Source: Leucobacter tenebrionis (GTDB taxonomy: Bacteria; Actinomycetota; Actinomycetes; Actinomycetales; Microbacteriaceae). From it: a DNA stretch of 64,000 nucleotides. The stretch covers positions 2,232,001-2,296,000 of the forward strand of contig NZ_CP082322.1 in the NCBI RefSeq assembly GCF_019884725.1, in the 5' to 3' direction. Of the stretch, positions 567 through 16,306 are shown one piece after another. A model generated the notes under the pieces. The model did no database searches. It was not told the DNA's origin and saw nothing but the letters and a program-made list of their open reading frames with translations. Positions within the stretch are counted from its first letter, which is position 1; every line of letters starts with the position of its first letter. Both the position numbers and the translations under genes were made by a program.

Positions 567-605
567 GGGATGCTCCTTCGGTCGGGTGTGTATTCGGGGT
601 CTTCG

Positions 606-1871
606 CTACTGCTGCACGTCCGCGGGCAGTTCGTGGCCCATGCGGTCGCGCTTCGTCGCGAGGTAGCCCATGTTCTGCTCGGTGACGCCCACCACGAGCG
701 GCACGCGCTCCGAGACCGTGATGCCGTGGGCCTCGAGCTGATGCACCTTGTCGGGGTTGTTGGTGAGCAGGCGCACCCGCTCGACGCCGAGCTCGGCGAG
801 GATCTCGGCGGCAGCGGTGTAGTCGCGGTCATCGGCCGGCAGCCCGAGCTGCAGGTTGGCGTCGAGGGTGTCGCGCCCCTGCTCCTGCAGCTGGTAGGCG
901 CGCAGCTTGTTGGCGAGGCCGATGCCCCGGCCTTCATGCCCGCGAAGGTATACGACGATGCCTCCGCGCTCCTGGATGAGGTCGAGGGCGGCGTCGAGCT
1001 GGGGGCCGCACTCGCATTTGAGCGAGCCGAACGCCTCGCCGGTGATGCACTCAGAGTGCACGCGCACGAGCGCCTCGTCACCGGGTGCGGAGCCGTCGGG
1101 GCCGGCCGCGATGAGCGCGAGATGGTCGATGCCCAGGCGCCGGTCGCGGTACGCGCGGGTCTGGAACTCGCCGTGCTCGGTCGGCAGCAGCGTCTCGGCG
1201 CGCAGGCTCACGCTGCGGTGCTGCGGCTGCTCGGCCGGCGCGTTCTCGGGTTCATGCTCGTTGAGGTATGCGATGAGCTGCTCGATGGTGATGACGGGGA
1301 TGCTCTCGCGCTCGCCCAGCTGGATCAGTTCGGGCAGACGCATCATCTCGCCGTCGTCGGCCACGATCTCGCCGATCACCGCGACGGGCCTGAGGCCGGC
1401 GAGGCGCATGAGCTCGACGCCGGCCTCCGTGTGGCCGTCACGGGCTCGAACGCCGCCGTCGACGGCGCGCAGCGGCAGGATGTGGCCGGGGCGGCGCACG
1501 TCGCCGGGGGTCGCGTTCGGATTGGCGAGGGCGCGCAGCGTGGTCGCGCGATCGCTCGCGCTGATGCCGGTGGTCACACCGTAGCTCGCGTCCACGGTCA
1601 CCGTGTAGGCGGTGGTGCGCAGGTCCTCGTTGCGCTCGACCATGATCGGAAGTTCGATCTGGTCGGCGATCTCGTTGGTCATCGGCGCGCACAGCAGCCC
1701 CGAGGAGTGATGCACCGTCCACGCGATCCACTCGGGGGTCGCGAGCTCGGCCGACAGGATCACGTCGCCCTCGTTCTCGCGATCCTCGTTGTCCGCGACG
1801 ATCACGGGCCGCCCCGCCCTGATCGCGGCGACCGCGTCTTCGATGCTGCTGATGCCTGGGGTGCTGGTCAT
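606..1871 (-). CDS. ribBA: Bifunctional 3,4-dihydroxy-2-butanone-4-phosphate synthase / GTP cyclohydrolase II
   Basis: This 421-aa fusion supplies both precursors of the lumazine ring. The N-terminal RibB half (about 1-205) has the VADNEDRENEGDV acidic metal/substrate loop and the RDGHTEAGVEL motif. The C-terminal RibA half (about 215-421) has VRVHSECITGEAFGSLKCEC with the zinc cysteines, RGHEGRGIGL, and LLTNNPDKVHQLEAHGI. The frame stays open further upstream, but the MTSTPGI start fits because it overlaps the ribE stop by 4 nt (ATGA), which implies translational coupling. A longer start would only add low-complexity Arg-rich sequence. Confidence 0.96.
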   Translation of the reverse strand: MTSTPGISSIEDAVAAIRAGRPVIVADNEDRENEGDVILSAELATPEWIAWTVHHSSGLLCAPMTNEIADQIELPIMVERNEDLRTTAYTVTVDASYGVTTGISASDRATTLRALANPNATPGDVRRPGHILPLRAVDGGVRARDGHTEAGVELMRLAGLRPVAVIGEIVADDGEMMRLPELIQLGERESIPVITIEQLIAYLNEHEPENAPAEQPQHRSVSLRAETLLPTEHGEFQTRAYRDRRLGIDHLALIAAGPDGSAPGDEALVRVHSECITGEAFGSLKCECGPQLDAALDLIQERGGIVVYLRGHEGRGIGLANKLRAYQLQEQGRDTLDANLQLGLPADDRDYTAAAEILAELGVERVRLLTNNPDKVHQLEAHGITVSERVPLVVGVTEQNMGYLATKRDRMGHELPADVQQ

Positions 1872-2527
1872 TGCTGGGTTCCTTCGGTCGTGGGGAAGAA
1901 GTTGCGCATGCGCGCCAGGTGGCGCGCGAGGATGTCGGTCTCGACGTTGACCCGGTCGCCGGGGGCGAGCGCGCCGAGTGTGGTCGCGGTGAGCGTCTCG
2001 GGGATCAGCGAGACCTCGAACCACTGATCGCTGCCGTCGTCGCCGGGCCCCGGTGGATCCGAGATCGCCGAGACGGTGAGCGAGACGCCCGAGAGCGTGA
2101 CCGAGCCCTTGTCGACGAGCAGCGGGGCGAGTTCGGGGGAGAGCGAGAACCGCAGCGTTCTCCAAGCCTCGTGGGGCGTGACGGAGAGCAGCGTGGCGGT
2201 GCCGTCGACGTGCCCCTGCACGATGTGGCCGCCGAGCCGGGTGTCGGCGCGCATCGCCCGTTCGAGGTTCACCGCGCTGCCCGGGGCGAGCTCGCCGAGC
2301 GTCGACATGCGGATCGACTGCCGCATCACGTCGGCGGCGAATGCGCCGCGACCGTCATCGGTCGAGCTCTGCTCGACCACGGTGAGGCACACGCCCGACA
2401 CGCAGATCGAGGCGCCGTGGGTGGCGTCGCTCGTGACCACGGGGCCGGCGATCGTGAGGCGGATCGAGTCGCCGATCGGTTCCACGGCGACGATCTCGCC
2501 GATCTCCTCTATGAGTCCGGTGAACAC
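1868..2527 (-). CDS. ribE: Riboflavin synthase, alpha subunit
   Basis: Riboflavin synthase dismutates two lumazines to riboflavin. The 219-aa product shows the duplicated barrel expected of the family. Each half carries a signature: FTGLIEEIGEIV with GASICVSGVCLTV in the first, and GHIVQGHVDGTATL with GSVTLSGVSLTV in the second. The start is GTG at 2527, giving the canonical (M)FTGLIEE N-terminus. Its first 19 nt overlap the end of ribD, and its stop overlaps the ribBA start by 4 nt. Confidence 0.95.
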   Translation of the reverse strand: MFTGLIEEIGEIVAVEPIGDSIRLTIAGPVVTSDATHGASICVSGVCLTVVEQSSTDDGRGAFAADVMRQSIRMSTLGELAPGSAVNLERAMRADTRLGGHIVQGHVDGTATLLSVTPHEAWRTLRFSLSPELAPLLVDKGSVTLSGVSLTVSAISDPPGPGDDGSDQWFEVSLIPETLTATTLGALAPGDRVNVETDILARHLARMRNFFPTTEGTQQ

Positions 2528-3708
2528 GTCTGGTTCTCCTTTGCTGGGGTGGGGCGCTGCTCGGGATCGGAGGGCGCCAGTGCGGCCTTGATCAGCAGGT
2601 CTGCGCCGAGTTGGACGGTGCGCGAGATGCGCAGCCGCCTGATGCCGTCGATGCCCGTGACGCCGATGTCGCCGAGTGCGAGCTTCGGGCCGCCGAGCAG
2701 AGCGGGGGCGAGGTAGATCAGCACCTCGTCGACGAGGTCTGCAGCGAGGAGCGCGCTCGCGACGGCGGGGCCGCCCTCGACGAAGAGGCGGCGGACGCCC
2801 CGCTCGTGCAGCGTCGCGAGGTCCGCGGCGAGGTCGTCGCCCGCGAGGCGCAGCGGCCCCGTGAGGCCGTGCGCGGCGAGGGCCGGGTGCTGCATCACCA
2901 GGGCGCCCTCCGGAACGGGGCGGTGACCGAGCACGACCGGGATCGGTTGCTCGTCGGCGGGCACCAGCAGGCCCCCGTGCTCGGCGCGGGAGGTCAGGGC
3001 GGGGTCGTCGGCGATGAGCGTGCCCGTGCCGACGAGGATCGCGTCGGCCTCCGCGCGCCGCCGGTGCACGTCGGCCCGGGCATCCACGCCGGTGATCCAG
3101 CGGCTCGAGCCGTCGGCTGCCGCGGCCCGGCCGTCGAGCGTCTGCGCCCACTTCACCGTGACGTGCGGTCGGGGGGAAGGCGGTGGCGCAGCGACGCTGG
3201 GCGGGGCGGTGGATCCGGATCCCGATCCCTCCACCGCGGCTCCCTGCCGGGCCAGCCACGGCCCGAGCACCGCGCGCGCCTCGCCGGGCAGCACGCCGCC
3301 GCGCACCTCGACGCCTGCCGCGCGCAGCCGGGCCGCGCCGCCGGAAGAGGCATCGCCCGGATCGCGCAGCGCGTAGGCGACCGCGCCGATCCCGGCCTCG
3401 ATCAGCGCGAGCGCGCAGGGGCCCGTGCGGCCCGTGTGGTTGCAGGGTTCGAGGGTCACGACCGCGGTGAGCTCGCCGGCCCTGTCCCGCCACTCGGCGG
3501 GCAGTGCCGCGAGCGCGGCGGTCTCGGCGTGCGGAGTCCCCGCACCGAGGTGCCAGCCCTCCGCCACGATGCGGCCGGAAGGATCGAGCAGCACGCAGCC
3601 GACCTGCGGATTCGGGTCGTCGGCCGGCCCGCGGCGGGAGACGGCGAGGGCGCGGCGCATCCCGTCTTCGAGGAGCACCTGCTCGAGCATCCCGATCCCC
3701 TGTTCCAT
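2509..3708 (-). CDS. ribD: Bifunctional diaminohydroxyphosphoribosylaminopyrimidine deaminase / 5-amino-6-(5-phosphoribosylamino)uracil reductase
   Basis: RibD performs the deamination and side-chain reduction steps of riboflavin synthesis. The N-terminal deaminase domain (about 15-150) has the zinc motifs TPHAETAAL and LEPCNHTGRTGPC. The C-terminal NADPH reductase domain begins near 168 with VTVKWAQTLDGRAA and contains GTGTLIADDPALTSR and VEGGPAVASALL. It is the first gene of the operon and lies about 55 nt past the FMN riboswitch. The ATG at 3708 has a poor ribosome site. Met7 at 3690 is preceded by AGGGGA at good spacing and is an equally likely start. Confidence 0.94.
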   Translation of the reverse strand: MEQGIGMLEQVLLEDGMRRALAVSRRGPADDPNPQVGCVLLDPSGRIVAEGWHLGAGTPHAETAALAALPAEWRDRAGELTAVVTLEPCNHTGRTGPCALALIEAGIGAVAYALRDPGDASSGGAARLRAAGVEVRGGVLPGEARAVLGPWLARQGAAVEGSGSGSTAPPSVAAPPPSPRPHVTVKWAQTLDGRAAAADGSSRWITGVDARADVHRRRAEADAILVGTGTLIADDPALTSRAEHGGLLVPADEQPIPVVLGHRPVPEGALVMQHPALAAHGLTGPLRLAGDDLAADLATLHERGVRRLFVEGGPAVASALLAADLVDEVLIYLAPALLGGPKLALGDIGVTGIDGIRRLRISRTVQLGADLLIKAALAPSDPEQRPTPAKENQTCSPDS

Positions 3709-3762
3709 CCGTGAGCCGGATCCGGGGTGCTGAGGGTTGCTCCGCGTAGCGCGGTACTCAGC

Positions 3763-3899
3763 GTTCCTCTCATCCGGACTAGACCGGCGGCGAACCGCCG
3801 TGCCATCACCGTCGGTATCGGAATTCCACCGATTCGGCCTCGCGGATGCGAGGTTCGCGGACTGTCACCGCCGGTTCGGATTCTCACCGACCCCGGAAC
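3763..3899 (-). promoter_or_regulatory. FMN riboswitch (RFN element)
   Basis: On the minus strand the conserved RFN blocks occur in order: GGTCGGTGAGAATCC, AACCGGCGGTGACAG, a CCGACGGT block, and AGTCCGGATGAGAGGAAC. The closing helix pairs GTTCC (3895-3899) with GGAAC (3763-3767). The element sits directly upstream of ribD, so FMN binding should repress the rib operon. A GCTGAG/CTCAGC pair just downstream could form part of the expression platform, but no U-rich terminator was seen, so translational control is likelier. Confidence 0.95.
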
Positions 3900-3907
3900 A
3901 CACCGTC

Positions 3908-3958: not shown

Positions 3959-4477
3959 TTATCGGGCGGGATCGACGGGTGCGATCGTGCCGAATCGCCG
4001 GTTGTGATAGAGCAGCGGATCCTGATCGTCGCCGAGGGTGCCGTCCTGGATCTCGAGCACCACGATCGCGTTCTCCCCGTGGTCGTAGATGCTCGCGACC
4101 TTGGTGAAGAGCACGACGCCCGCGTCGTCGATGACGGGCAGGCCCCGCTCCTCGTGCCAGTGGTCGCCCGCGAAGCGCTCCTCCGCGGGCCCGGCGAAGC
4201 GCTGGCCCAGCTCGTGCGATCCGGCGCCGAGGAAGTTCACGGCGATCCGGCAGCCGAGCTGCACGGCCCGGAAGCTGCTCGACGACTTGATCATGTTGAA
4301 GGTGGCTCGCGGCGGCACCGCGGAGAGCGAGGCGAGCGAGGTCGCGGTGAAGCCGACGGGCGTCCCGTCGTCGTCGACCGTCGTGCACACCACCACACCG
4401 CCGGCGTGCCGGCGGAAGGTGTTGCGGAACAGGTCGAGCAGCGTCTCGGACGAGGGGCGGGTCAGGGTCGTGGTCAT
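3959..4477 (-). CDS. Flavin reductase domain protein (FMN-binding split barrel)
   Basis: The 172-aa protein belongs to the flavin reductase-like (HpaC/NtaB-type) family, which uses NAD(P)H to make free reduced FMN for a partner monooxygenase. Typical segments are GVVVCTTVDDDGTPVGFTAT near residue 28, the SLSAVPPRATFNMIKSSSS flavin-binding region, IAVNFLGAGSHELGQRF, and a C-terminal LLYHNRRFG. An AAGGAG ribosome site lies 7 nt before the ATG. It lies 30 nt after the LLM monooxygenase gene and is almost certainly its reductase partner. It could in principle serve the other LLM oxygenase in the window. Confidence 0.85.
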   Translation of the reverse strand: MTTTLTRPSSETLLDLFRNTFRRHAGGVVVCTTVDDDGTPVGFTATSLASLSAVPPRATFNMIKSSSSFRAVQLGCRIAVNFLGAGSHELGQRFAGPAEERFAGDHWHEERGLPVIDDAGVVLFTKVASIYDHGENAIVVLEIQDGTLGDDQDPLLYHNRRFGTIAPVDPAR

Positions 4478-4507
4478 TGCGTTTCTCCTTATCGTCTGCT
4501 GAGTCGG

Positions 4508-5824
4508 TTACCGGTCGGCGGGCTGCTCGGCCGCGGGTGCCAGGACGTGCTCGCGCAGCGTGCTGCCCGAGTAGTCGCTGCGGAACAGGCCGCGCTCCTG
4601 AAGGATCGGCACCACGGAGCGTGCGAACTCCTCGAATGCGCTGGGCAGCACGGCGGGGTTGATGATGAAGCCGTCGTTGCCCCAGTTCTCGAACATGTCC
4701 TGCATCATGTCGGCGACCTGCTCGGGGGTGCCGACGAGCTCGGGGCCGAGGTCGTTGAGTGCGAGGCGGCGGGCGGTCTCGCCGAAGGTGAGCCCCTCCT
4801 TCTTCATGGTGCCGAGGAACACGTCGAGCGCGCCGCTGCCCTCGAGGCCCTCGACATCGAGGTCGTCGATCGTCGCGTCCGGGGAGATGGAGGCCAGGTC
4901 GAGGCCGGTGTAGCTGGCGGCCCGCTCGAGCGCCACGTCGAGGTCGATCAGCGAGTACAGATGGTTGCGCCGAGCGTACGCGATCTGCTCGGTCTCGCCG
5001 ACGATGACCTGGATCGACGGCAGGATCGCGCAGTCCTCGGGCGCGCGGCCCTCCTTGGCGAGGCGCTCGTTCATGTCGGCGCGGAACGCCTGCATGCCCT
5101 CGGCGTTGCGCTGGTAGGTGAAGACGATCTCGGCCCACTTGGCGGCGAAGTCGCGACCGCGCGGGGAGGAGCCCGCCTGCATGATCATGGGGCGGCCCTG
5201 CTCGCTCGGGGGCACGGTCAGCGGCCCCTGCGTGCTCACGTAGCGTCCCTCGTACTCGAAGCCGTCGAGCCGCTCGGGGTCGATGAAGAGGCCGCTCTTC
5301 CGATCCGCCACGTAGGCGTCGGCCGGGAAGCTCTCCCAGAGCTTGATCGCGGCCTCGACCACCTCATCGGCGCGGTCGTAGCGCTCGCTCTTGGGCAGGA
5401 GGCCCGACATGCCGTACCGGTGGGCTTCCCGATCCGCCACCGACGTCACCACGTTCCACGCCATGCGACCGCGGCTGAGCACGTCGAGCGTGCCCATCGC
5501 GCGGGCGATGCCGTAGGGCTGGAAGAGGCTGGTCGAGATCGTGACCCCGATGCCGAGCTTCGTGGTGCCCGCCGCGATCTGCGCGGCGAGGGGCACGGGA
5601 TCGAGCAGGTAGAGATCCCCGCCCTTGCGCACCATCTCGTCGCCGTAGAAGACCTGCGCGTCCGCGAAGAAGATCGCGTCGAACTTCGCGTCCTCGAGCG
5701 TGCGGGCGATCCCCGTCCACCACTCGCCGTTCAGATAATCGTTCTCGGCCTGCGGGTGCAGCCAGCTCCCCATGTGGGGGCCGGTGGTGACGACGGCGAC
5801 GAGGTGCATCTGGCGCTTGCTCAC
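4508..5824 (-). CDS. FMNH2-dependent LLM-class monooxygenase (NtaA/SnaA/DszA type)
   Basis: The 438-aa product fits the NtaA/SnaA/DszA/DmoA branch of bacterial luciferase-like oxygenases, which use reduced FMN from a separate reductase to attack chelators, sulfides, sulfones or N-heterocycles. Family features are WRHP-like GSWLHPQ near 20, ARTLEDAKFDAIFFADA, GIGVTISTSLFQPYGIAR, GRMAWNVVTS, KSERYDRADE near 145, GRPMIMQAGSSPRGRDFAA, and a C-terminal DGFIINPAVLP. It starts with GTG after AAGGA. The next gene is a flavin reductase and the previous one an MFS transporter, so this is a two-component oxygenase with its own uptake system. The substrate cannot be read from sequence; an organosulfur compound is one possibility. 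Confidence 0.88.
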   Translation of the reverse strand: MSKRQMHLVAVVTTGPHMGSWLHPQAENDYLNGEWWTGIARTLEDAKFDAIFFADAQVFYGDEMVRKGGDLYLLDPVPLAAQIAAGTTKLGIGVTISTSLFQPYGIARAMGTLDVLSRGRMAWNVVTSVADREAHRYGMSGLLPKSERYDRADEVVEAAIKLWESFPADAYVADRKSGLFIDPERLDGFEYEGRYVSTQGPLTVPPSEQGRPMIMQAGSSPRGRDFAAKWAEIVFTYQRNAEGMQAFRADMNERLAKEGRAPEDCAILPSIQVIVGETEQIAYARRNHLYSLIDLDVALERAASYTGLDLASISPDATIDDLDVEGLEGSGALDVFLGTMKKEGLTFGETARRLALNDLGPELVGTPEQVADMMQDMFENWGNDGFIINPAVLPSAFEEFARSVVPILQERGLFRSDYSGSTLREHVLAPAAEQPADR

Positions 5825-5867
5825 TGTGTTTCCTTACTGTCGGGTTGGGTCTGCGGAGAGGGAGGGA

Positions 5868-7193
5868 TCAGGCTGAGGCGCGCTCGGCGTCGAGCCGCTG
5901 GGCGCGTTCGGTATCGCGGTTGCCGTTCAGGGCCGCGAGGGTGAAGCAGATGAGTGTGGCTGCGCCGGCGACGAGCACGACGACGAGCATCGCCGTGCGC
6001 AGGGAGTCGACGCCGAGGCCGTCGGACAGGCGGTCGCTGATGGCCCCGATCGTGAAGGAGCCGAGGCCCTGGCCGATGCCCATGAGCACGAACATGACGG
6101 CGACGACCTGCGTGTGCAGGGAGGTGGGGGTGACGTCCTGCGAGAAGGAGAGCACGCTGCCGTAGGCCGCCATGCCAAGCAGGATCGTCAGCGAGACTCC
6201 CACGAGCGAGACCTGCTGGCTGCTCGTGAACAGCATCGCCAGGTAACCCACGAGGGTCAGGGCCACCACGGAGAGGTTCATCCACTGCATGCGCCGAGTG
6301 GAGTGGGTGCGCAGCCGGATCGCGACGGCGCCTCCCACCAGAATGCCCAGGGTGCCGAGCACGATGTAGTTGGTGCCCATCAGCCAGGCGATGCGGGAGT
6401 CGCTCATCTCGAGGGAGCGCGACAGGTACAGGGGCAGCCACTGGAAGGCCGAGTCGGTGAGCACGACCTGGAAGAACGTGCCGATGAGGATCCACCGCGC
6501 GCTCTTGATGCGGAAGATCGCGCCCAGGCTGCGCAGCCCGAGTGATTCGCGCTCCTCCTCCGCGGGGGTCTCGGATTTCGGCAGCAGCAGGAAGATCGCG
6601 AGGCCGATGATGAGGGTGATGCCCGACGCGGCGAAGAAGCCGGCGCGCCAGCCGTAGGCGACCGCGAGATCGCCGATGACGTAGTAGGCGAAGACCATGC
6701 CGCCGATGAGGCCGATCGTGTAGCCGGAGTTGGCGAAGACGCGCTTCGAGCCGTGGAAGTGATCGGCGAGGATCGACAGGGACGGCGCGGAGACGGTCGC
6801 CTCGGCCATGCCGATGCCGAGCAGCGCGATGAACAGCGGCCAGAAGCTGAAGGATCCGCCCGCGAGCAGCGGCATGAGCACGAGCACCACCATCGAGAGC
6901 TTCACGAAGCTCGAGTTGGTGACGCGCCCCGCGAGTGCGACGACGCCGAGCGCCGCGGCGATGTTGAGCGCCACCGAGGCGAAGCCGGTGAGCACGCCCA
7001 CCTGCGTGTCGCTCATGGCGATCTCCTCGGTGATCGCCGGCAGCAGGAGCGGGAAGATCTGCCGGTTCATGTAGGTGACCAAGTAGGCGGAGGCCACGAG
7101 CACGAGCACGATGGTCTGCTTCTTGGTGAGCCGCCACTTCGATGTCGGCGGTGTGCCCACCGGTTCGTGAGTCTCTTCCAGGGTTCTCGTCAC
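5868..7193 (-). CDS. MFS transporter
   Basis: The 441-aa membrane protein has about 12 predicted hydrophobic segments. It has an MFS motif-like stretch GFASVALNIAAALG in the first half and a long cytoplasmic loop near residues 215-235. The N-terminus is soluble up to about residue 27. The GTG start is preceded by AAAGGAG at 5 nt. It is the first coding gene of an operon with the LLM monooxygenase (43-nt gap) and flavin reductase, so it probably imports their substrate. The substrate is unknown. Confidence 0.85.
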   Translation of the reverse strand: MTRTLEETHEPVGTPPTSKWRLTKKQTIVLVLVASAYLVTYMNRQIFPLLLPAITEEIAMSDTQVGVLTGFASVALNIAAALGVVALAGRVTNSSFVKLSMVVLVLMPLLAGGSFSFWPLFIALLGIGMAEATVSAPSLSILADHFHGSKRVFANSGYTIGLIGGMVFAYYVIGDLAVAYGWRAGFFAASGITLIIGLAIFLLLPKSETPAEEERESLGLRSLGAIFRIKSARWILIGTFFQVVLTDSAFQWLPLYLSRSLEMSDSRIAWLMGTNYIVLGTLGILVGGAVAIRLRTHSTRRMQWMNLSVVALTLVGYLAMLFTSSQQVSLVGVSLTILLGMAAYGSVLSFSQDVTPTSLHTQVVAVMFVLMGIGQGLGSFTIGAISDRLSDGLGVDSLRTAMLVVVLVAGAATLICFTLAALNGNRDTERAQRLDAERASA

Positions 7194-7989: not shown

Positions 7990-9033
7990 CTACCGGAACA
8001 CCGGCATGACTCCCTCGATGAAGAGCTCGAGCGAGCGCTTCTTCTCGGCGTGGTCGAGGGAGTTGTCGCTCCAGAAGCTGTACTCGGTGACTCCGAGCGC
8101 CTCGTAGTGCCGCAGCCGCTCGACGATTTCCGCCGGTGTACCGATCATCGCGGTGCGGTGCAGCGACTCGAGTGAGAACTCGGGCTTGTCTGCGAACACC
8201 TCCTCGGGGGTGGGATCGAGAAAGCCGTTGACCGGTGTCTTCTTGTTACCGAACCAGGCGCCGAAGGTGCGGTAGAAGCGGTTGACGCCCGCGGCCCCGA
8301 TTCTCCACGCATCGGGCTCGTCCTCCGGATGCACGTAGGTGTGGCGCAGCACCATGATGTCGGGGCGCTTCTCGACCTCGGGGTGGTTCGCGATCGCGGT
8401 CTCGTATTTGTTCACGAGATCCTCGACCTCCTCATCACCCTTCATGAGCGGCGTCACCATCACGTTGGCACCGTTCGCGACGGCGAAGTCGTGCGACTCG
8501 GGGCTGCGGGCGGCGACCCACACCGGCGGGTTCTTCTGCACGGGTTTCGGCACGCTCGTCGACGTGGGGAAGGAGTAGACCTCGCCATCGAACGCGAAGT
8601 CGCCGTCCCAGAGGTGGTTGACGGTCGCCACGATCTCGTTCATCGCCTTGCCGCCGTCGGTCGCGGGCATACCGCCCGCCAACCGGTCGAACTCGAACTG
8701 GTAGGCGCCGCGGGCGACGCCGAGCTCGGCTCGGCCGCCGCTGATCACGTCGAGCAGCGCGACCTCACCCGCCGTGCGGATCGGGTTCCAGAACGGCGCG
8801 ATGATGGTGCCGGCGCCGAGGCGGATCGTCGAGGTGCGGGCGGCCAGGTAGGCGAGCTGGGGGATGGGATTCGGGGAGGCCGTGTACTCCATCGAGTGGT
8901 GCTCGCCGATCCACACCGTGCTGAAGCCGCCCGCCTCCGCGAGGAGCGCCAGCTCGACGAGGTTGTCCCAGTGCTGCTGCTCGGAGACGGAGTCGTCATA
9001 GCGCTCCATGTGGATGAAGAGTGAGAAACGCAT
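7990..9033 (-). CDS. LLM-class flavin-dependent oxidoreductase (luciferase-like)
   Basis: The 347-aa protein is a compact luciferase-like TIM barrel. Motifs include FSLFIHMERYDD at the start, AEAGGFSTVWIGEHHSMEY near 33-51, RLGAGTIIAPFWNPIRTAGEVALLD near 72-95, GRAELGVARGAYQFEFDRL, and PPVWVAARSPESHDFAVANG near 180. This architecture uses reduced flavin for oxygenation, often with a separate reductase. GGGAG precedes the ATG by about 7 nt. It is the last gene of the minus arm of the GntR-controlled island. Its likely reductase partner is the SnoaL-flavin reductase fusion across the divergent promoter. A ring-cleaving oxygenase role is inferred from its neighbours. Confidence 0.85.
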   Translation of the reverse strand: MRFSLFIHMERYDDSVSEQQHWDNLVELALLAEAGGFSTVWIGEHHSMEYTASPNPIPQLAYLAARTSTIRLGAGTIIAPFWNPIRTAGEVALLDVISGGRAELGVARGAYQFEFDRLAGGMPATDGGKAMNEIVATVNHLWDGDFAFDGEVYSFPTSTSVPKPVQKNPPVWVAARSPESHDFAVANGANVMVTPLMKGDEEVEDLVNKYETAIANHPEVEKRPDIMVLRHTYVHPEDEPDAWRIGAAGVNRFYRTFGAWFGNKKTPVNGFLDPTPEEVFADKPEFSLESLHRTAMIGTPAEIVERLRHYEALGVTEYSFWSDNSLDHAEKKRSLELFIEGVMPVFR

Positions 9034-9062
9034 GGTCTGCTCCCTTGTTGTCTGCTGAATGG

Positions 9063-9266
9063 TTACCGGCCGGGCGCCGCGAGGCGCTCAGCAATCGTCT
9101 GGTCGGTGCGCGACCAGTGCTCGTGCTCGATCTCGCGCACGATGACCGTGATGTTCTCGGGAGCCGCGTCGACCGTCTCCTCGGCCGCACGGTGTACGGC
9201 GTGGATGAGCGCGCGCAACTGCTCTGGCGTGCGCCCGCGCGCGATCGAGATGTCGATGAGGGGCAT
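9063..9266 (-). CDS. 4-oxalocrotonate tautomerase family protein
   Basis: The 67-aa protein begins MPLIDISIARGRTPEQLRALI, giving the catalytic N-terminal proline after Met removal and the usual 60-70 residue size of 4-OT monomers. An ENITVIVREI strand follows near 38-47. The family isomerises enol and keto forms of ring-cleavage products such as 2-hydroxymuconate. The gene starts 6 nt after the aldehyde dehydrogenase stop, so it is co-translated with it and fits a ring-fission pathway. The exact substrate is unknown. Confidence 0.85.
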   Translation of the reverse strand: MPLIDISIARGRTPEQLRALIHAVHRAAEETVDAAPENITVIVREIEHEHWSRTDQTIAERLAAPGR

Positions 9267-9272
9267 GCCGAA

Positions 9273-10787
9273 TCAGCCCCGCATCACGAAGGGGTCGGCG
9301 ACGGGACCCTCGTCCGTGTTGATCCACACGCTCTTGAGCTTGGTGTACTCGTGCATCGACTCGATGCCGTGCTCGATGCCGACACCGGAGTGCTTGAATC
9401 CCTGACGAGGCGACATCGGCGACATCGCGCGGTAGGTGTTCACCCAGATGGTGCCCGCGTCGATGCGGCGCGCGAGGCGGTGAGCGCGGGCGAGGTTCTG
9501 CGTCCACACGCCTGCGGCGAGGCCGTACTCGGTGTCGTTGGCAAGTGCGACGAGCTCGTCCTCCTGCTCGAAGGGCATGATCGCCGCGACGGGGCCGAAG
9601 ATCTCCTCGCGCACGACCCGCATGTCGTTGTCGACGTCGGTGAGCACGGTTGGAGCGTAGTAGTAGCCGGGTAGCTCGATGCCGTCGGGTCGCCCGCCGC
9701 CCGTGTGCACGGTCGCCCCTTCGGACGCGCCGAGACGGACGTAGGAGTCGACCTTGTCCAGCTGGTCGGAGAAGGCGAGCGGGCCTAGTTCGGTGTCGTC
9801 GGCGAGCGGATCGCCTATCCGGATCGACCTTGCCCGCTCCGTCACCCGCTCGAGCAGCTCGTCATAGACGGCCTTGTGGGCGAAGACCCGGCTGCCCGCG
9901 ATGCACGTCTGTCCGCCGGCGGCGTAGATACCGGCCACGACGCCCATCGCGGCGTTCGCCACGTTCGCGTCGTCGAACACGATGTTGGGGCTCTTGCCGC
10001 CGAGCTCGAGGGTGCAGCCGATGAAGCGGGCCGCGGCCTCGCTCGCGATGCGCGAGCCGGTCGCGGTCGAACCGGTGAACGAGATCTTCGCGAGGGCCGG
10101 ATGGCTCACGAGCGGCGCACCGGCCTCGGCGCCGAGGCCGGTGACGACGTTCAGAACGCCAGCGGGGAATCCGGCCTCGACCGCGAGCTCGGCGAGGCGC
10201 AGGATCGTGCGCGAGGTGTACTCGCTCGGCTTGATCACGACGGTGTTGCCCGCCGCGAGGGCGGGGGCGATCTTCGACGTGGTGAGGGTGAGCGGCGAGT
10301 TCCACGGGGTGATCACGCCCACGACGCCGAGCGGCTCGCGCTGGGTATAGTTGAGGATCTCGAGGCTCGTCGCCGGGATCTGCGCGCCCTGCACCTTGTC
10401 GGCGAGGCCTGCGTAATAGTAGTAGTACTCGGGCAGTGCGCGCATCTGGCCGCGCATCTCGCGCAGCAGCTTGCCGTTGTCGACGCTCTCGAGCAGGGCG
10501 AGTTCGTCGGCGTGCTCGCCGATGAGGTCGCCGAGCCGGCGCAGCAGGTGGCCGCGCTTCGTCGCTGTGAGACCGGCCCAGGCGGGCGCTTCGAAGGCTG
10601 CACGGGCGGCGGTGACGGCGCGCTCGACGTCCGGGGCGGTTCCCCGGGCGGCCTCGTAGAGCACGTCGAGCGTGGCGGGATTGGTGCTCTCGAAGTAGGC
10701 TCCCTCGGTGGGGGCGACGCGCTCTCCGCCGATGAAGTGGTCGAGGCGCTCAGTCGCGCCGGGCGTGTTCGTGCTGGGCTCGTTCAT
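9273..10787 (-). CDS. NAD-dependent aldehyde dehydrogenase (semialdehyde dehydrogenase type)
   Basis: The 504-aa product is a full-length ALDH superfamily member. It shows VVGVITPWNSPLTLTTSKIAPALAAGN with the catalytic Asn, KPSEYTS for NAD binding, ISFTGSTATG, ELGGKSPNIVF with the general-base Glu, GGQTCIAGSR with the nucleophile Cys near residue 305, and EEIFGPVAAIMPF. It resembles hydroxymuconic or other ring-cleavage semialdehyde dehydrogenases. AAGGAG sits 7 nt before the ATG, and the start lies inside the end of the hydrolase gene. The next gene is a tautomerase. It probably oxidises the semialdehyde released by flavin-dependent ring opening. Confidence 0.88.
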   Translation of the reverse strand: MNEPSTNTPGATERLDHFIGGERVAPTEGAYFESTNPATLDVLYEAARGTAPDVERAVTAARAAFEAPAWAGLTATKRGHLLRRLGDLIGEHADELALLESVDNGKLLREMRGQMRALPEYYYYYAGLADKVQGAQIPATSLEILNYTQREPLGVVGVITPWNSPLTLTTSKIAPALAAGNTVVIKPSEYTSRTILRLAELAVEAGFPAGVLNVVTGLGAEAGAPLVSHPALAKISFTGSTATGSRIASEAAARFIGCTLELGGKSPNIVFDDANVANAAMGVVAGIYAAGGQTCIAGSRVFAHKAVYDELLERVTERARSIRIGDPLADDTELGPLAFSDQLDKVDSYVRLGASEGATVHTGGGRPDGIELPGYYYAPTVLTDVDNDMRVVREEIFGPVAAIMPFEQEDELVALANDTEYGLAAGVWTQNLARAHRLARRIDAGTIWVNTYRAMSPMSPRQGFKHSGVGIEHGIESMHEYTKLKSVWINTDEGPVADPFVMRG

Positions 10788-11538
10788 GCTCAGCTCCTTC
10801 CGATTCTGCGATGAATGCGGTGATGGCGGCGGCGAGGGCGGGGGTGTCCTCGACGGGCATCATGTGGCGGGTGTTCGGCACGATCACGACCCGGCAGTCC
10901 GGGATCGCCGCCGCGAGCCGCCGCGACATCTCGGGGGTGGATCCTGGATCGAGCTCCCCGGTGATCGCGAGCGATGGTGCCGCGATGCGTCCGAGCTCGG
11001 GGCCGATCTCGTGGTCGCCGCGCGCGAACACCGTGTAGGCGTGCAGGTATGATTCGACGTCGTTGGCGAGCAGCGCCGCTCGGGTGCGCTCGACGATCTC
11101 CTGCGGCACCGCGGTGGTCGCGGCGGGGAACCACCGCTCGATCGACGCCTCGACGCCGCGGGTGAAGTCGTCGCCGGCGGTGGCGAGGCGGGCCTCGACC
11201 CTCTCGGCCTCCTCGGGAGTGCGTCGGCACACGGAGTTGACCGATGTGAGGGTGGCCACCCGCTCGGGCGAGAAGCGCGCGATGTGCTGCGCGATGAGCG
11301 CCCCGAGGGAGAACCCCACGAGGTGCGCGCGGCCCTCGGGCAGGCGTGCGACGACGTCCGCGGCGAGCGACGCGAGCGTCTGCGCTCGCCGCAGCGGCGG
11401 CTGGCCGCCGTGCCCGGGCAGGTCGAGCACGACGCACGGCCGCCCGGCCGCTTCGAGCCGCGCCGCGAGGGGCTGCCACATCGAGCGATCGAGGCCGACG
11501 CCGTGCAGCAGCACGATCGGGATCTGCGCGCTGGTCAT
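10750..11538 (-). CDS. Alpha/beta hydrolase
   Basis: The roughly 262-aa enzyme has the oxyanion-hole motif LLHGVGLDRSMW near the start, the nucleophile elbow GFSLGA near residue 88, an Asp candidate in ITGELDPGST and a His in PNTRHMMPVE, so the triad appears complete. It resembles PcaD-like enol-lactonases and meta-cleavage hydrolases. I prefer the ATG at 11538 (MTSAQIPI, preceded by AGGAT) over an in-frame TTG at 11556 that would overlap the upstream stop. It overlaps the aldehyde dehydrogenase start by 38 nt. In this operon it could hydrolyse an amide, formyl or ester group of a ring-opened intermediate. Confidence 0.85.
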   Translation of the reverse strand: MTSAQIPIVLLHGVGLDRSMWQPLAARLEAAGRPCVVLDLPGHGGQPPLRRAQTLASLAADVVARLPEGRAHLVGFSLGALIAQHIARFSPERVATLTSVNSVCRRTPEEAERVEARLATAGDDFTRGVEASIERWFPAATTAVPQEIVERTRAALLANDVESYLHAYTVFARGDHEIGPELGRIAAPSLAITGELDPGSTPEMSRRLAAAIPDCRVVIVPNTRHMMPVEDTPALAAAITAFIAESEGAEHERAQHEHARRD

Positions 11539-11552
11539 CGTCGTGATCCTGT

Positions 11553-12116
11553 TCAATCCTTGCCGAGTTCGGCGAGGCGCTGTTGGGGGCGGCCCTGATT
11601 CGCCCCGGCGAGAGCGACGAGGATCTCGTCGGGGTGCGGGGCGTCGGCGACGCGTGCTTCGACGGTCTGGTGGTGGGAGCGGATCTTCATGTCGGTGAAG
11701 TGCTTGAGCGGGATGTCGAAGGCGATGCCGGCGGGGCCGCGTTTCTCGACGGCTGGAAGCAGGGTGGTGGCGTTCGCGGCGTTGCGGAAGTGGTTGCCGA
11801 AGTTGAGGTTGTGGATGAGGCCGGAGCCGTGTTCGATTTCGCCGTTGAGGCCGATGATGGCGGCTTTGCCGTAGGCCTCGAGGGGCGCGTCGAGCGCCTC
11901 CATCACGCGCGGTGCGAGGAGTGCGCCGAGGTCGGAGGCGATGGCGTTGATGCCGGGGAGAAGGTCCACGACGAAGCCTTGACCGGCCCAGGGGTTCGCG
12001 AATACAGCACCGACGATGGCGACGCGGTGGACCGGGTCGACCGGGCGGCCACCCTCGAGGACAGTCTCCTCGACGATCGTGAAGATCTTGCGCGGGTTCA
12101 GGACGGGGGTGCTCAC
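11553..12116 (-). CDS. Amino acid synthesis (AA_synth, DUF1185) family protein
   Basis: The 187-aa product matches the AA_synth/DUF1185 family by VAIVGAVFANPWAGQGF, LGALLAPRVMEAL, the EAYGKAAIIGLNGEIEHGSGLIH core, the GNHFRNA motif, and RSHHQTVEARVADAPHPDEI. Members are small alpha/beta proteins of unproven biochemical role. The name comes from an old prediction and should not be taken as function. It overlaps the end of its larger paralog by 4 nt (ATGA), so the two are probably made together and may form a complex. Confidence 0.82.
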   Translation of the reverse strand: MSTPVLNPRKIFTIVEETVLEGGRPVDPVHRVAIVGAVFANPWAGQGFVVDLLPGINAIASDLGALLAPRVMEALDAPLEAYGKAAIIGLNGEIEHGSGLIHNLNFGNHFRNAANATTLLPAVEKRGPAGIAFDIPLKHFTDMKIRSHHQTVEARVADAPHPDEILVALAGANQGRPQQRLAELGKD

Positions 12117-12781
12117 AGTTCGATCTCCTTCAGGATCTCCGAAGTGACGGGTTGGTCGGTGGTGCGGTCGCCGATTCGGGCGAATGGACGGGGGCCGGTC
12201 GATGCCGTGGCGACGACCGCGATCTCCCCGGCGTGGGGCGCATCGACGAGGTTCACCTCGACGGTCTGGTAGTGGCTGCGAGTGGCGGCCGCCGTCTTAT
12301 GCCACAGCGGCACGCGCAGCAACTCCCCCGGCTCGGCGCGGCCGTCGACGAAGCAGATGATCGAGGTGCCCTCGAGTGCCTCGCGCACGAGATTGCCGAA
12401 GTAGGGAGTGTGCACGAGGGCTCCGGCGTGCTCGAGCTCGCCCGCGGTGCCGACGAGGGCCGCCTTGCCGAAAGCCTCGATTCGATCCGCCCCTCCGAGC
12501 GCGTCGAGCAGGCGATCGGTGAGCAGTTTCGCGAGCAGCGGCGCCACGCGCCGCGTCTCGGGGGCGAGATCGGTGTCGGTGCCGGTGCCGAGCCAGGGGT
12601 TGCGGATCACGGCGATCGCCGCGGCGCGCCGGATCGGTTCCGCGTGCTCGCGCGGAACCTCCTCGACCTGGGTGGAGACCCGGCGCAGGCCCGCGGCGGC
12701 GGCGACATCCGCATAGTCGACCAGGGTGGATCGGCTGCTGAGGTCGACGGTGCGCGCCTCGGCTGTGGGTATGGGGGGCAT
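12113..12781 (-). CDS. Second AA_synth (DUF1185) family protein
   Basis: The 222-aa paralog has an N-terminal extension of about 35 residues over its neighbour. It shares the family core: AIAVIRNPWLGTGTD, VAPLLAKLLTDRLLDAL, EAFGKAALVGTAGELEHAGALVH, GNLVREALEG, and RSHYQTVEVNLVDAPHAGEI. The motif register is identical in the two paralogs but overall similarity is modest, as expected for an old duplication. It is the first gene of the minus arm and begins about 40 nt past the GntR gene's stop. Function is unknown. Confidence 0.82.
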   Translation of the reverse strand: MPPIPTAEARTVDLSSRSTLVDYADVAAAAGLRRVSTQVEEVPREHAEPIRRAAAIAVIRNPWLGTGTDTDLAPETRRVAPLLAKLLTDRLLDALGGADRIEAFGKAALVGTAGELEHAGALVHTPYFGNLVREALEGTSIICFVDGRAEPGELLRVPLWHKTAAATRSHYQTVEVNLVDAPHAGEIAVVATASTGPRPFARIGDRTTDQPVTSEILKEIEL

Positions 12782-12820
12782 CGGTGCTCCTGGGGTCGGC
12801 GGTTGAGGGGCGAAAGGTCG

Positions 12821-13513
12821 TCAGGCGTCTTCGTGGTCGCCGTCGAAGGCGGCGATCGTGGCCGACTCGCGGGTAAGGGCGACGTGCCGCCGGGTCGCGA
12901 GCTCGGCCGCGAGCGGATCCTTCGACTGCACGGCCTCGACGATGCGCGCGTGCTCGCTCAGAGAGTGGTCGAGGCGGCCGGGCAGCTTGAGTGTTTGCTT
13001 GACGATGCGGTGGTACGCGAGCTGGTTCATGAGTAGCTCGTAGTGCTCGGAGAGCTTCTGGTTGTCGGCGCCGGCGACGAGCGTGTGGTGGAACTCGTGC
13101 ACGAGCGCTGCGTAAGCCGCCTGGTCGCCTGCGCGCACGACATCCCGCTCACTCTGGACGTTGTGGATGAGGCTGCGCAACTCGGGCACGTCGCCGCGCT
13201 GCGCCAGCAGGCTCGCCGCGAGCCCCTCCAGCGACTCCTTAAGCTGGAAGAGCTCGAGGATCTCGCGAGCGGTGGGCTTGCGCACGAATGTGCCGACGCG
13301 GGGGCGGATCTCCACGAGCCCCTCGCGCTCCAGTTGCTTCAGCGCCTCGCGAATCGGCGTGCGGCTGACCTCGAACTCCTCGGCGAGCGCCGTCTCGCCC
13401 AACAGATCGCCGGGCGCGACCGTCCCGCTGACGACGAGGCTGCGGAGCCGGTCGAGTATGGAGGAAGGTGCCTGGGGGAGATCGAGCCGCGGACGCGGTG
13501 CGTTGTCTTGCAT
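12821..13513 (-). CDS. GntR-family transcriptional regulator (FadR/FCD type)
   Basis: An N-terminal winged helix (about 10-75) shows GETALAEEFEVSRTPIREAL and EGLVEIRPRVGTFV. A C-terminal all-helical FCD ligand domain follows, with EFHHTLVAGADN and DHSLSEHARIVEAV supplying likely metal-binding His/Asp. The frame extends to a TTG at 13537, but the ATG at 13513 (MQDNAPRP) is preferred. It lies 6 nt after a TATTCT -10 and has no ribosome site, so the mRNA looks leaderless. The start codon lies inside a TTGCATGCAA palindrome, which argues for autoregulation. It probably controls both arms of the island and responds to a pathway acid. Confidence 0.88.
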   Translation of the reverse strand: MQDNAPRPRLDLPQAPSSILDRLRSLVVSGTVAPGDLLGETALAEEFEVSRTPIREALKQLEREGLVEIRPRVGTFVRKPTAREILELFQLKESLEGLAASLLAQRGDVPELRSLIHNVQSERDVVRAGDQAAYAALVHEFHHTLVAGADNQKLSEHYELLMNQLAYHRIVKQTLKLPGRLDHSLSEHARIVEAVQSKDPLAAELATRRHVALTRESATIAAFDGDHEDA

Positions 13514-13548
13514 GCAACAAGAATAGCTTGCATGCAAAGATTGGGCAA
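13508..13548 (-). promoter_or_regulatory. Promoter and two operators of the GntR gene
   Basis: On the minus strand TTGCCC (13543-13548) and TATTCT (13520-13525) are 17 nt apart. One perfect TTGCATGCAA palindrome fills the spacer (13528-13537). A second (13508-13517) covers the start codon. Confidence 0.7.
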
Positions 13549-13605
13549 GACGTGTCGTGCTGCGGGCGCAAAATTATGCGGATTGATGAGGCTGTGGGGC
13601 GCCTG

Positions 13606-13648
13606 TTGACGTGAAGTGTTGGCTGAGTTTAGTATTCCTTGCATGCAA
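13606..13648 (+). promoter_or_regulatory. Leaderless promoter and operator of the SnoaL-flavin reductase gene
   Basis: TTGACG (13606-13611) and TAGTAT (13630-13635) are 18 nt apart. The ATG follows 7 nt later, so transcription should start at or next to the A of the start codon. A perfect TTGCATGCAA (13639-13648) overlaps the start, the same site found twice at the GntR gene. Confidence 0.7.
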
Positions 13649-14596
13649 CAAGACATCAAAGAAGCTGTAGCAGCTGCCTGGGCAGCCGCGTGGGACCGCG
13701 GCGAGGTGGAAGCCTTCGACGGAATACTCCATCCCGAGTACCGCAGACTGACCGCGGGGAACGGCAACCTCCGCGACGCCGCCTACCTCAAACAGGAGAT
13801 CCTTGACATCCGCGCTGCCTTCCCGGATCTCGTCACCACGGTCGATAACCTCCTCGTCGACGAGGCCGAGGGCGAAGCCGCGATCTTCTGGCGCTCGACG
13901 GGCACCTTCACGCATGACCTACCGGGAGTGCCTGCTACGGGCAATCGAGTGGAGACGCGCGGATCGAATCTTCTGACGCTCCGCGGCGGTCTCATCGTCT
14001 CCGAGCGCGTGACGTGGGACCGCGCCGAACTGCTCGAGGACCTGGGCGTGCCGTCCCTCCGCTCGGCATTCGAGGAGCCCGAAGAAGTGGTGGTCGACAA
14101 CCTGAGCGGCGTCCCCAGCATCGACGCGCTCAAGGGGTTCAATCGCCAGTTCATCACCGGCGTCACCGTGGTCACCACCATCGACGACGAGGGGCGGCCT
14201 CGAGGACTTGCGGCGAACTCGTACGCCTCGGTGTCGCTTGATCCGCCCCTCGTGCTGGTCTGCGTGCAGAAAACTACCTCGACCCATGACCCGCTGTTCA
14301 AATCGAGCCATCTCGGCATCAACATCATGAGCACCGGCCAGCGGGACACCGTCGGTGTCTTCGCTTCGAAGGCACCCGACAAGTTCGCGGAGGTCGAGTG
14401 GCATCGCGCCCCGCACGGCAGCCCACTCCTCGAGGGGTCCGCGGCCTCCATCGAGGCCGAGATCAAAGAGCGCTTCCTGACGAAGACGCACACCGTGTTC
14501 ATCTCGAAGGTCACCCACGCCGAGGCTTCGGATCTCGATGCCCTCATCTACAAGGGCGGCAAGTTCTACGCCAGCGGAGATCTTGAGCAGCTCTGA
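13643..14596 (+). CDS. SnoaL-like / flavin reductase fusion protein
   Basis: This 317-aa protein joins two modules. Residues 1-135 look like a SnoaL/ester-cyclase fold, with AWAAAWDRGEVEAFDGILHP, an FPDLVTTVDNLLVDEAEGEA strand, FWRSTGTFTHDLPGVPATG, and GLIVSERVTWD. Residues 155-317 are a flavin reductase split barrel, with FITGVTVVTTIDDEGRPRGLAANSYASVSLDPPLVLV, NIMSTGQRDTVGVFAS, and a C-terminal YKGGKFYASGD. A linker of about 20 residues lies between them. The start is the ATG inside the operator; an in-frame upstream start would place the promoter inside the gene. It probably supplies reduced flavin to the LLM oxygenase at 7990-9033. The role of the SnoaL part is unknown. Confidence 0.82.
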   Translation: MQQDIKEAVAAAWAAAWDRGEVEAFDGILHPEYRRLTAGNGNLRDAAYLKQEILDIRAAFPDLVTTVDNLLVDEAEGEAAIFWRSTGTFTHDLPGVPATGNRVETRGSNLLTLRGGLIVSERVTWDRAELLEDLGVPSLRSAFEEPEEVVVDNLSGVPSIDALKGFNRQFITGVTVVTTIDDEGRPRGLAANSYASVSLDPPLVLVCVQKTTSTHDPLFKSSHLGINIMSTGQRDTVGVFASKAPDKFAEVEWHRAPHGSPLLEGSAASIEAEIKERFLTKTHTVFISKVTHAEASDLDALIYKGGKFYASGDLEQL

Positions 14597-14644
14597 CGAC
14601 CCACCCTCCCATACCCCGACCGACACAAGGATGTGCGACCAGTC

Positions 14645-16306
14645 ATGAACGAAGAAGAAGCAGCCACCGCCGAGCACCACCGTCCGCCCGAGCCGATCAA
14701 GCTCGGTACCGAGCGCAGCGAGCCCGAGTTCCTCACCAGCACGATCAGCATCGTGGAAGCCGAGCGACTGAAGACCCGCCCGGGCACGGTGTTCTGGATC
14801 TCGATCGTGCTGATCCTCGCCTTCACCGCCTGGGCGATGATCTCGCCCGAAACCCTCGGCGGTTCCATGACCTCGGCGATGAACTGGGCCGCCGGCAGTA
14901 TCGGCTGGAGCTACCTCGTGGTCACGCTTGGTTGCATCCTCTTGCTGGTCTACCTGGCGGTGAGCCGCTTCGGCGGCATCCGGCTGGGAACCAACGAAGA
15001 TCGTCCCGAGTTCAGCACCTGGGCCTGGCTTGCCATGATCCTGTCCGCGGTCATGGGCATCGGTCTCATCAGCTACGGCGTGGCCGAGCCCATCTCGCAC
15101 TTCGTCACCCCGCCGCACGGTCTCGCCGAGCCCGAGACGATGGACGCAGCAGTCACGGCGATGCAGTTCAGTTACTTCGACTGGGGTCCGAACGCGTGGG
15201 CGGTTTTCGGCGTGTTCGGCCTCGCGATCGCTTACTCCACCCACCGCCGCCACAACACCGGGCTCATCTCGCCCATGTTGCGTCCGATCTTCGGCAGGGC
15301 CGTGGACGGCTGGTTCGGCAAGATGATCGACATCTTCGCGATCATCGCGACGCTGTTCGGCACCACCACCTCGCTCGGCCTCGGCGCCTCGCAGATCAGC
15401 GAGGGGATGTCGCAGGTGTTCGGGATCCCGAGCACTCTCGTGACCCAGATCCTCATCATCGCCGTCATCACCGCGATGTTCACGCTCTCCGCGCTCTCGG
15501 GCGTGCACCGGGGCATCAAGTGGCTGAGCCAGATCACCACGGTGTTCTCCATCGGCCTCGGGGTCTTCGTTCTCGTCGTCGGGCCGACGGACTTCATCTC
15601 CAACCTGTTCTTCCGCTCGGTCGGGCAGTTCTTCGGCCAGTTCTTCCAGGTCGCGCTCATCACGCCCAGTACGCCGGACGACGTCGCCTGGATGCAGTGG
15701 TGGACCTACTTCATGATGGCGTGGTGGCTGAGCTGGGGCGCGTTCGTGGGCGTTTTCCTCGCGAAGATCTCGAAGGGCCGCACCATCCGGCAGTTCGTGA
15801 TCGGCGTCATGGGAGTGCCGAGCCTCGTCTTCTTCGTCTGGTTCACGATCATGGGCGGATCGGCGATCAAGTTCGACATGGACGGCGCCGACATCGGAGC
15901 GAAGGCGGCCGAGGACGTTAACTCCGCGTTCTTCGCGCTGCTGGGCGAGCTTCCGCTCACGACTATCACTTCGGTGGTGGCGATCATCCTCGTGGTGCTC
16001 TACTTCGTGTCGGGCGCCGACGCCAACACCTTCGTGCTGAGCATGCTGTCGTCGCGCGGCACTTTCGAACCGACCAAGCCGGTGCTCACCGTCTGGGGGG
16101 TGCTCACTGGCGTCTCTGCGATCGCACTGCTGATCGTCGGCGGACTTTCAGCGCTCCAACAGGCGGCGATGCTCTCGGCGCTGCCCTTCACGGTGATCGT
16201 CGCCCTGCTCGGCATCTCGCTGGTGAAAGAACTGCAGCGGGACCAGCGCTTCGTCGGCACCCACTACGTCACCCGCGACGAACTCGACCAAGTGCTTGGC
16301 AAGTAG
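14645..16306 (+). CDS. BCCT family (betaine/carnitine/choline) transporter
   Basis: The roughly 553-aa membrane protein has about 12 hydrophobic segments and BCCT hallmarks: GTNEDRPEFSTWAWLAMILSA, GIGLISYGVAEPISHF, the YFDWGPNAWAVFG stretch, the GLGASQISEGM segment, a WTYFMMAWWLSWGAFVGVFLAKISKGRTIR signature region near 360-390, and VSGADANTFVLSMLSS. BCCT carriers import quaternary-ammonium compounds by Na+ or H+ symport. The ATG at 14645 is taken; a GTG at 14633 in the same frame is possible. It follows the SnoaL-flavin reductase gene by about 48 nt and shares its promoter. This is the main clue that the island degrades a betaine-like compound. Confidence 0.9.
   Translation: MNEEEAATAEHHRPPEPIKLGTERSEPEFLTSTISIVEAERLKTRPGTVFWISIVLILAFTAWAMISPETLGGSMTSAMNWAAGSIGWSYLVVTLGCILLLVYLAVSRFGGIRLGTNEDRPEFSTWAWLAMILSAVMGIGLISYGVAEPISHFVTPPHGLAEPETMDAAVTAMQFSYFDWGPNAWAVFGVFGLAIAYSTHRRHNTGLISPMLRPIFGRAVDGWFGKMIDIFAIIATLFGTTTSLGLGASQISEGMSQVFGIPSTLVTQILIIAVITAMFTLSALSGVHRGIKWLSQITTVFSIGLGVFVLVVGPTDFISNLFFRSVGQFFGQFFQVALITPSTPDDVAWMQWWTYFMMAWWLSWGAFVGVFLAKISKGRTIRQFVIGVMGVPSLVFFVWFTIMGGSAIKFDMDGADIGAKAAEDVNSAFFALLGELPLTTITSVVAIILVVLYFVSGADANTFVLSMLSSRGTFEPTKPVLTVWGVLTGVSAIALLIVGGLSALQQAAMLSALPFTVIVALLGISLVKELQRDQRFVGTHYVTRDELDQVLGK

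Follow-up and report, generated by a model that had tools for sequence, protein, structure and literature searches.

A divergent gene island of Leucobacter tenebrionis resembles the trigonelline (tgn) pathway and probably serves the catabolism of an aromatic quaternary betaine

Which compound might be imported and degraded by the products of one compact gene island in Leucobacter tenebrionis? The island occupies positions 7990–16306 of the stretch analysed here (the window: 64,000 nucleotides, bases 2232001–2296000 of a single-contig genome of 3.38 Mb) and consists of two divergent units. The leftward unit encodes a GntR regulator, two DUF1185 proteins, an alpha/beta hydrolase, an aldehyde dehydrogenase (ALDH), a 4-OT tautomerase and an LLM-class oxygenase. 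The rightward unit encodes a fusion of a SnoaL domain with a flavin reductase, followed by a BCCT carrier. A first-pass annotation had listed these families, and profile matches recovered every one of them where it had been placed. It had also proposed betaine uptake, ring opening by a two-component LLM oxygenase, oxidation of a semialdehyde and hydrolysis, by comparison with TgnAB and TgnC. Homology supports this proposal, as four proteins of the tgn cluster of Acinetobacter sp. PK01 had their best matches in the genome among the island genes. We estimate a probability of about 0.72 that this is a catabolic island of the tgn kind, by which an aromatic quaternary betaine would be imported, ring-opened, oxidised and hydrolysed; the likeliest such compound is trigonelline (N-methylnicotinate).

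The trigonelline pathway of Acinetobacter baylyi ADP1 was reportedly described by Perchat et al. in 2018. In strain PK01, a plasmid (NZ_CP094644.1) carries a cluster annotated tgnA, tgnB and tgnC, in which TgnA and TgnB are named as reductase and oxygenase of trigonelline monooxygenase, and TgnC as (Z)-2-((N-methylformamido)methylene)-5-hydroxybutyrolactone dehydrogenase. The rest of the cluster encodes a GntR regulator, a DUF1185 protein, an alpha/beta hydrolase, an NCS1 carrier ("cytosine permease") and a succinate-semialdehyde dehydrogenase (SSADH), and it is flanked by sarcosine-oxidase-type genes. The LLM-class oxygenase of the island (7990–9033, minus strand, 347 aa; PF00296, 222 bits) was 46% identical to PK01 TgnB over its full length, and a search of the genome with TgnB retrieved it first (367 bits, 49 for the next match). 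The island ALDH (9273–10787, minus strand, 504 aa; PF00171, 564 bits) was 46% identical to PK01 TgnC and the best of its 22 matches (443 versus 328 bits). Homology of the alpha/beta hydrolase (10750–11538, minus strand, 262 aa; Abhydrolase match) to the PK01 hydrolase, for which we derived the name TgnD from family and position, was modest (29%), and the island protein was the best of eight matches in the genome (103 versus 37.5 bits). In the SnoaL–flavin reductase fusion (13643–14596, plus strand, 317 aa in a single frame; PF07366 and PF01613), the reductase half was 37–39% identical to the N-terminal half of PK01 TgnA, for which the fusion was the best of six matches (97 versus 65 bits). DUF1185 proteins A (11553–12116, minus strand, 187 aa) and B (12113–12781, minus strand, 222 aa), which matched PF06684 with 190 and 174 bits, were 41% and 45% identical to the PK01 DUF1185 protein, respectively; the GntR/FCD regulator (12821–13513, minus strand; PF00392 and PF07729) was 27% identical to that of PK01. 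The island holds, then, counterparts of TgnB, of the reductase domain of TgnA and of TgnC, together with a TgnD-type hydrolase and TgnF-family DUF1185 homologues. Judged by these homologies it is a rearranged actinobacterial variant of the known tgn pathway, with another importer and extra proteins, rather than the undescribed island that it had been taken for.

The same genes were linked in relatives. Named genomes were scanned with ten actinobacterial oxygenases, which yielded at least 575 relatives, and the best 80 loci were kept. These loci were found through the window's oxygenase and ranked by how similar theirs was to it, and the linkage frequencies below hold for its near relatives, the nearest being that of L. 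celer (92%). Thirty-six loci were from Pseudomonas and 44 from Actinobacteria; six of the latter had less than 9 kb before the oxygenase and were dropped, so that counts refer to 38 actinobacterial and to 32 of the 36 Pseudomonas loci. In these counts, NCS1, SSADH and isochorismatase were labelled by tblastn, with proteins from related clusters as queries. Oxygenase, ALDH, hydrolase, both DUF1185 proteins, SnoaL and reductase were present in all 38 actinobacterial loci, GntR in 37 and the 4-OT tautomerase in 34, whereas SSADH adjoined seven. The order and strand of the genes for DUF1185 B, DUF1185 A, hydrolase, ALDH, 4-OT tautomerase and LLM oxygenase were kept in 36 of the 37 loci holding all six, and chance is therefore no explanation for the island. 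Among 299 genomes sampled from the family, 32 contained PF06684. Of 20 PF06684-bearing regions fetched, eight held the island oxygenase with DUF1185, hydrolase, ALDH, tautomerase and GntR neighbours; the other 12 were without this oxygenase, and some of them kept the DUF1185 pair in other settings.

Several observations weigh against a tgn-like function. PK01 TgnA joins its N-terminal reductase to another C-terminal half and has no SnoaL domain, in agreement with the first-pass annotation, which had considered the SnoaL fusion foreign to any pathway that it could name. A clustered TgnE-type SSADH was likewise missing from the window's island; two SSADH-like genes (44–45%) lie elsewhere in the genome. 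Because of these two differences, we call the island a variant predicted to work in a tgn-like manner, not a strict tgn cluster. The gene names in PK01 are presumably themselves homology-based. Only three of the 32 Pseudomonas loci with an island-type oxygenase had DUF1185 or ALDH, and one of eight Microbacteriaceae oxygenase regions (L035) lacked matches to SnoaL and to the reductase across the 19.5 kb retrieved. No protein of the genome reached the cut-off of the type III glutamine synthetase model TIGR03105, which we take to cover the methylamine enzyme gamma-glutamylmethylamide synthetase; a copper amine oxidase was present, and this and the two SSADH-like genes were counted in favour. Finally, in a tree with very distant outgroups, TgnB-type oxygenases formed a clade of their own (100/98), and the window's oxygenase fell outside it, at 46–51% identity, so that its substrate could have shifted.

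This last point raises the alternative that the same chemistry acts on another substrate, such as N-methylisonicotinate, homarine, 1-methylnicotinamide or a plain pyridine carboxylate, which we consider possible but doubtful. It would also accommodate the isochorismatase-type hydrolase of seven of the 38 actinobacterial loci, which could first deamidate an amide, and the occurrence of a DUF1185 pair beside 6-hydroxynicotinate reductase in Sulfitobacter. From the 80 loci, we took 26 genomes with an island-type oxygenase (18 of Pseudomonas and eight actinobacterial) and looked for co-presence of the two oxygenase types. In each of them, the best match to PK01 TgnB was the island-type oxygenase (49–51%), and no other among the matches listed exceeded 39%, a value that belonged to an incomplete second copy of the island type in the genome of locus L094. 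That the two types did not occur together among these matches fits both doing one job, and argues against a different substrate. As for homarine, one study (PMC8269262) argues that action of TgnAB on it is unlikely on steric grounds and states that Ruegeria pomeroyi grew more poorly on it; according to a published correction, the homarine standard was contaminated. On balance, we lean towards trigonelline itself as the substrate. In the same tree, the Pseudomonas oxygenases formed another clade (100/99), and the position of this clade beside a Geodermatophilus row (93/95) suggests that they may have been acquired from Actinobacteria. At these loci, which include L104 and L105, an oxygenase about 70% identical to that of the window is accompanied by an NCS1 carrier and a flavin reductase of short length: a reductase match was found in 31 of the 32 and NCS1 in 29, while SnoaL and the 4-OT tautomerase were found in none.

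The carrier offers a second view of the substrate. The BCCT protein of the island (14633–16306, plus strand; TIGR00842, 453 bits, cut-off 408) is a probable importer. It did not reach the equivalog for glycine-betaine uptake (NF047988; 525 bits, cut-off 650) and was 36% identical to the other BCCT of the same genome, as opposed to 54–84% to BCCTs of related islands. The motifs WG..AWA.F and AWW..WGAFVG, whose tryptophans presumably have a role in quaternary-ammonium binding, were kept in all 31 island BCCTs, window included. The first-pass annotation had named a lack of co-occurrence of BCCT with the LLM and ALDH genes as grounds for refutation, and it was not refuted on this count: in 29 of the 38 actinobacterial loci they did co-occur; an NCS1 carrier was found in eight of the other nine (NCS1 in 11 loci overall, both carriers in three, at least one of them in 37), and BCCT in none of the 32 Pseudomonas loci. 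The type of carrier depended on the lineage: Actinobacteria had BCCT or NCS1; Acinetobacter, Pantoea and Burkholderia had NCS1; Sinorhizobium had an ABC system, and ProX-type genes adjoined the cluster of Agrobacterium C58. We infer that these carriers converge on an aromatic heterocycle that is at the same time a quaternary betaine, as trigonelline is; such a compound would fit all of them. In seven loci (L045, L067, L069, L080, L085, L098 and L099), an isochorismatase-type hydrolase was located beside NCS1 carriers near the island, where an amide precursor, for example 1-methylnicotinamide, might be its substrate.

A non-aromatic betaine was weighed on the same genes. For a pyrrolidinium-type compound, also considered in the first-pass annotation, nothing was found in favour. 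More broadly, uptake of an aliphatic or pyrrolidinium betaine (stachydrine, carnitine), with the LLM oxygenase as a demethylase, would draw on the BCCT gene adjoining an ALDH that scored best against betaine-aldehyde dehydrogenase (517 bits, under the cut-off of 669). PK01 TgnC, however, also scored best against that model (479 bits, likewise under the cut-off), so that the score of the island ALDH is no pointer to glycine betaine. Moreover, no Rieske or TMA-dehydrogenase-type family was matched by the island proteins scanned, and eight of the 38 loci carried NCS1 without BCCT. Taken together, these observations leave a non-aromatic betaine scarcely credible.

The roles of the remaining proteins of the proposed trigonelline-type pathway are less readily assigned. 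SnoaL and reductase shared one frame in 22 of 40 loci, were separate neighbouring genes in 17 and were divided by an intervening stop in one; fused or neighbouring, SnoaL is a steady partner of the reductase in Actinobacteria. The two DUF1185 genes of the island are the only PF06684 matches in the 3.38-Mb genome. The first-pass annotation had placed this pair outside any pathway that it could name. One study (PMC7913881) describes TgnF, a stimulator of TgnE-dependent succinate-semialdehyde oxidation, as a homologue of a DUF1185-family protein from coumarin degradation, for which the authors could not show such stimulation. The family that the annotation left unplaced therefore belongs to the very pathway that it named, and the PK01 cluster carries one member. 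In an alignment of 15 A, 15 B and three tgn-type rows, both copies kept Lys84, Glu93, Glu95, His96, Arg146, Asp158 and Arg176 (numbering of protein A). The AlphaFold model of protein A (predicted local distance difference test score, 91.8) matched the DUF1185 structures 3BYQ and 2QTP. The 4-OT tautomerase (9063–9266, minus strand, 67 aa; PF01361, 57 bits) had relatives with proline directly after the methionine in all 39 sequences extracted. Malonate-semialdehyde decarboxylase, a member of the tautomerase superfamily, acts on a similar beta-aldehyde acid, and by this analogy our guess is that tautomerase and DUF1185 proteins may act at the formylsuccinate/enamine stage. We think it rather unlikely that the actinobacterial and Pseudomonas oxygenase type uses a pyridinium betaine other than trigonelline and that, in addition, the DUF1185 pair forms a heteromeric enzyme acting with the 4-OT tautomerase at this stage, fed by the BCCT carrier. 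Were this joint reading true, it would mean a new step, the first catalytic role for DUF1185 and the first BCCT importer of an aromatic betaine.

DUF1185 pairs were also seen elsewhere. On a plasmid of Sulfitobacter pontiacus (L060, 2504–9570), the annotation places tandem DUF1185 genes next to xanthine-dehydrogenase-type genes and to those for 6-hydroxynicotinate reductase, UPF0280 and a Rieske-type oxygenase. This adds a further N-heterocycle setting for the family. Three regions (L042, L043 and L044) held the pair with GntR and an alpha/beta hydrolase and without the island LLM oxygenase or ALDH; in L042, it adjoined polysaccharide-deacetylase-like and asparaginase-like proteins, a nucleoside-type ABC transporter and a nucleoside hydrolase (named by eye). 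Two others (L036 and L040; labelled by eye) combined it with hydrolase, ALDH, an SsuABC-like transporter and a Zn-dehydrogenase, and had no LLM oxygenase match.

We propose the following route. Import of the aromatic quaternary betaine, trigonelline being the likeliest, would fall to the BCCT carrier. The LLM oxygenase would receive reduced flavin from the reductase half of the fusion and would open the pyridinium ring. The ALDH would then convert the formamido-aldehyde/hydroxybutyrolactone to formamidomethylene-succinate, from which the alpha/beta hydrolase would release formate and methylamine to give formylsuccinate. Formylsuccinate would decarboxylate to succinate semialdehyde, to be oxidised to succinate by a dehydrogenase encoded elsewhere in the genome. 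The intermediates beyond the hydroxybutyrolactone are presumably those of the tgn pathway. The tautomerase and the DUF1185 pair probably work on an unstable enol or enamine, or on formylsuccinate.

Both units appear to share one control. The palindrome TTGCATGCAA occurred three times in the window, always at or between the starts of the GntR and fusion genes: copy 1 (13508–13517) overlaps the probable start codon of the GntR gene, copy 2 lies at 13528–13537, and copy 3 (13639–13648) overlaps the probable start codon of the fusion gene. No copy was found in 100 shuffles. Its core TGCATGCA was present in 16 of the 19 intergenic regions (18 loci and the window) in which GntR and SnoaL genes are divergent. 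TTGCATGCAA is likely to be the operator of the GntR protein, which would repress both divergent units through it until the substrate or an intermediate binds.

The limits of the island coincide with the conserved module. To its right, a Zn-alcohol dehydrogenase was more than 80% identical in only one relative (L033). To its left, at 3959–7193 on the minus strand, a flavin reductase, an NtaA/DmoA-type LLM protein (TIGR03860, over cut-off) and an MFS carrier separate it from a riboflavin operon; among the relatives searched, none had these LLM and MFS genes next to the module, and the three genes were likewise not found at that spot in Leucobacter relatives. The riboflavin operon (69–3904, minus strand) encodes RibBA, RibE and RibD by Pfam, and probably RibH by position and by eye, with a flavin mononucleotide (FMN) riboswitch (RF00050) at 3758–3904. 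It contains the only DHBP synthase of the genome and is therefore a housekeeping operon. In six Leucobacter relatives (L033 and L064–L068, with L034 and L068 being one contig), the oxygenase gene is directly followed by this operon, and a riboflavin kinase and a NUDIX gene were located beside two Arthrobacter clusters (L053 and L099). A flavin supply adjoining a flavin-hungry pathway is suggestive only.

Trigonelline is a plant betaine, abundant in legumes and coffee. Our reading would set a widespread, unlabelled cluster (80 actinobacterial and Pseudomonas loci, the best from a single genome collection with 575 or more relatives of the oxygenase) beside a known pathway for such a compound, tie the DUF1185 family to N-heterocycle catabolism and suggest a BCCT carrier for an aromatic betaine. 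It would also predict soil and plant bacteria able to eat trigonelline.

Among other known systems, the Rut pyrimidine pathway shares with the island the combination of LLM oxygenase, flavin reductase and alpha/beta hydrolase. A Rut-like pathway, in which a pyrimidine or another ring of nucleobase type would be opened oxidatively and DUF1185 would play a Rid-like role, is nevertheless very improbable. The island reductase (72 bits, cut-off 255) and hydrolase (48 bits, cut-off 239) scored far under the RutF and RutD equivalogs, RutA was absent among the 25 families listed for the oxygenase, of 29 in all, and both the conserved tryptophan motifs of the island BCCTs and the best genome-wide matches of the tgn proteins speak against it. 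For the DUF1185 proteins BB2672 (3BYQ) and SPO0826 (2QTP), a 2010 paper (PMC2954203) suggested a role in amino-acid metabolism. The closest comparison is the Acinetobacter tgn cluster, with which the island shares LLM oxygenase, flavin reductase domain, ALDH, alpha/beta hydrolase, DUF1185, GntR and a dedicated carrier. Unlike PK01, the island has BCCT in place of NCS1, a reductase joined to SnoaL instead of the C-terminal half of TgnA, two DUF1185 proteins instead of one, an added 4-OT tautomerase, no adjoining SSADH, another gene order and an oxygenase outside the TgnB-type clade. Five tgn-like plasmid clusters, from Pantoea, Burkholderia, Sinorhizobium, Leisingera and Agrobacterium C58, differ from the island in having one DUF1185 gene and no annotated SnoaL or 4-OT. 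Four of the five contain accessories of the NIPSNAP, DUF1330 or carboxymuconolactone-decarboxylase type, and NCS1 or ABC carriers are located beside four. All five keep DUF1185, hydrolase, reductase, LLM oxygenase and ALDH together, as does the island.

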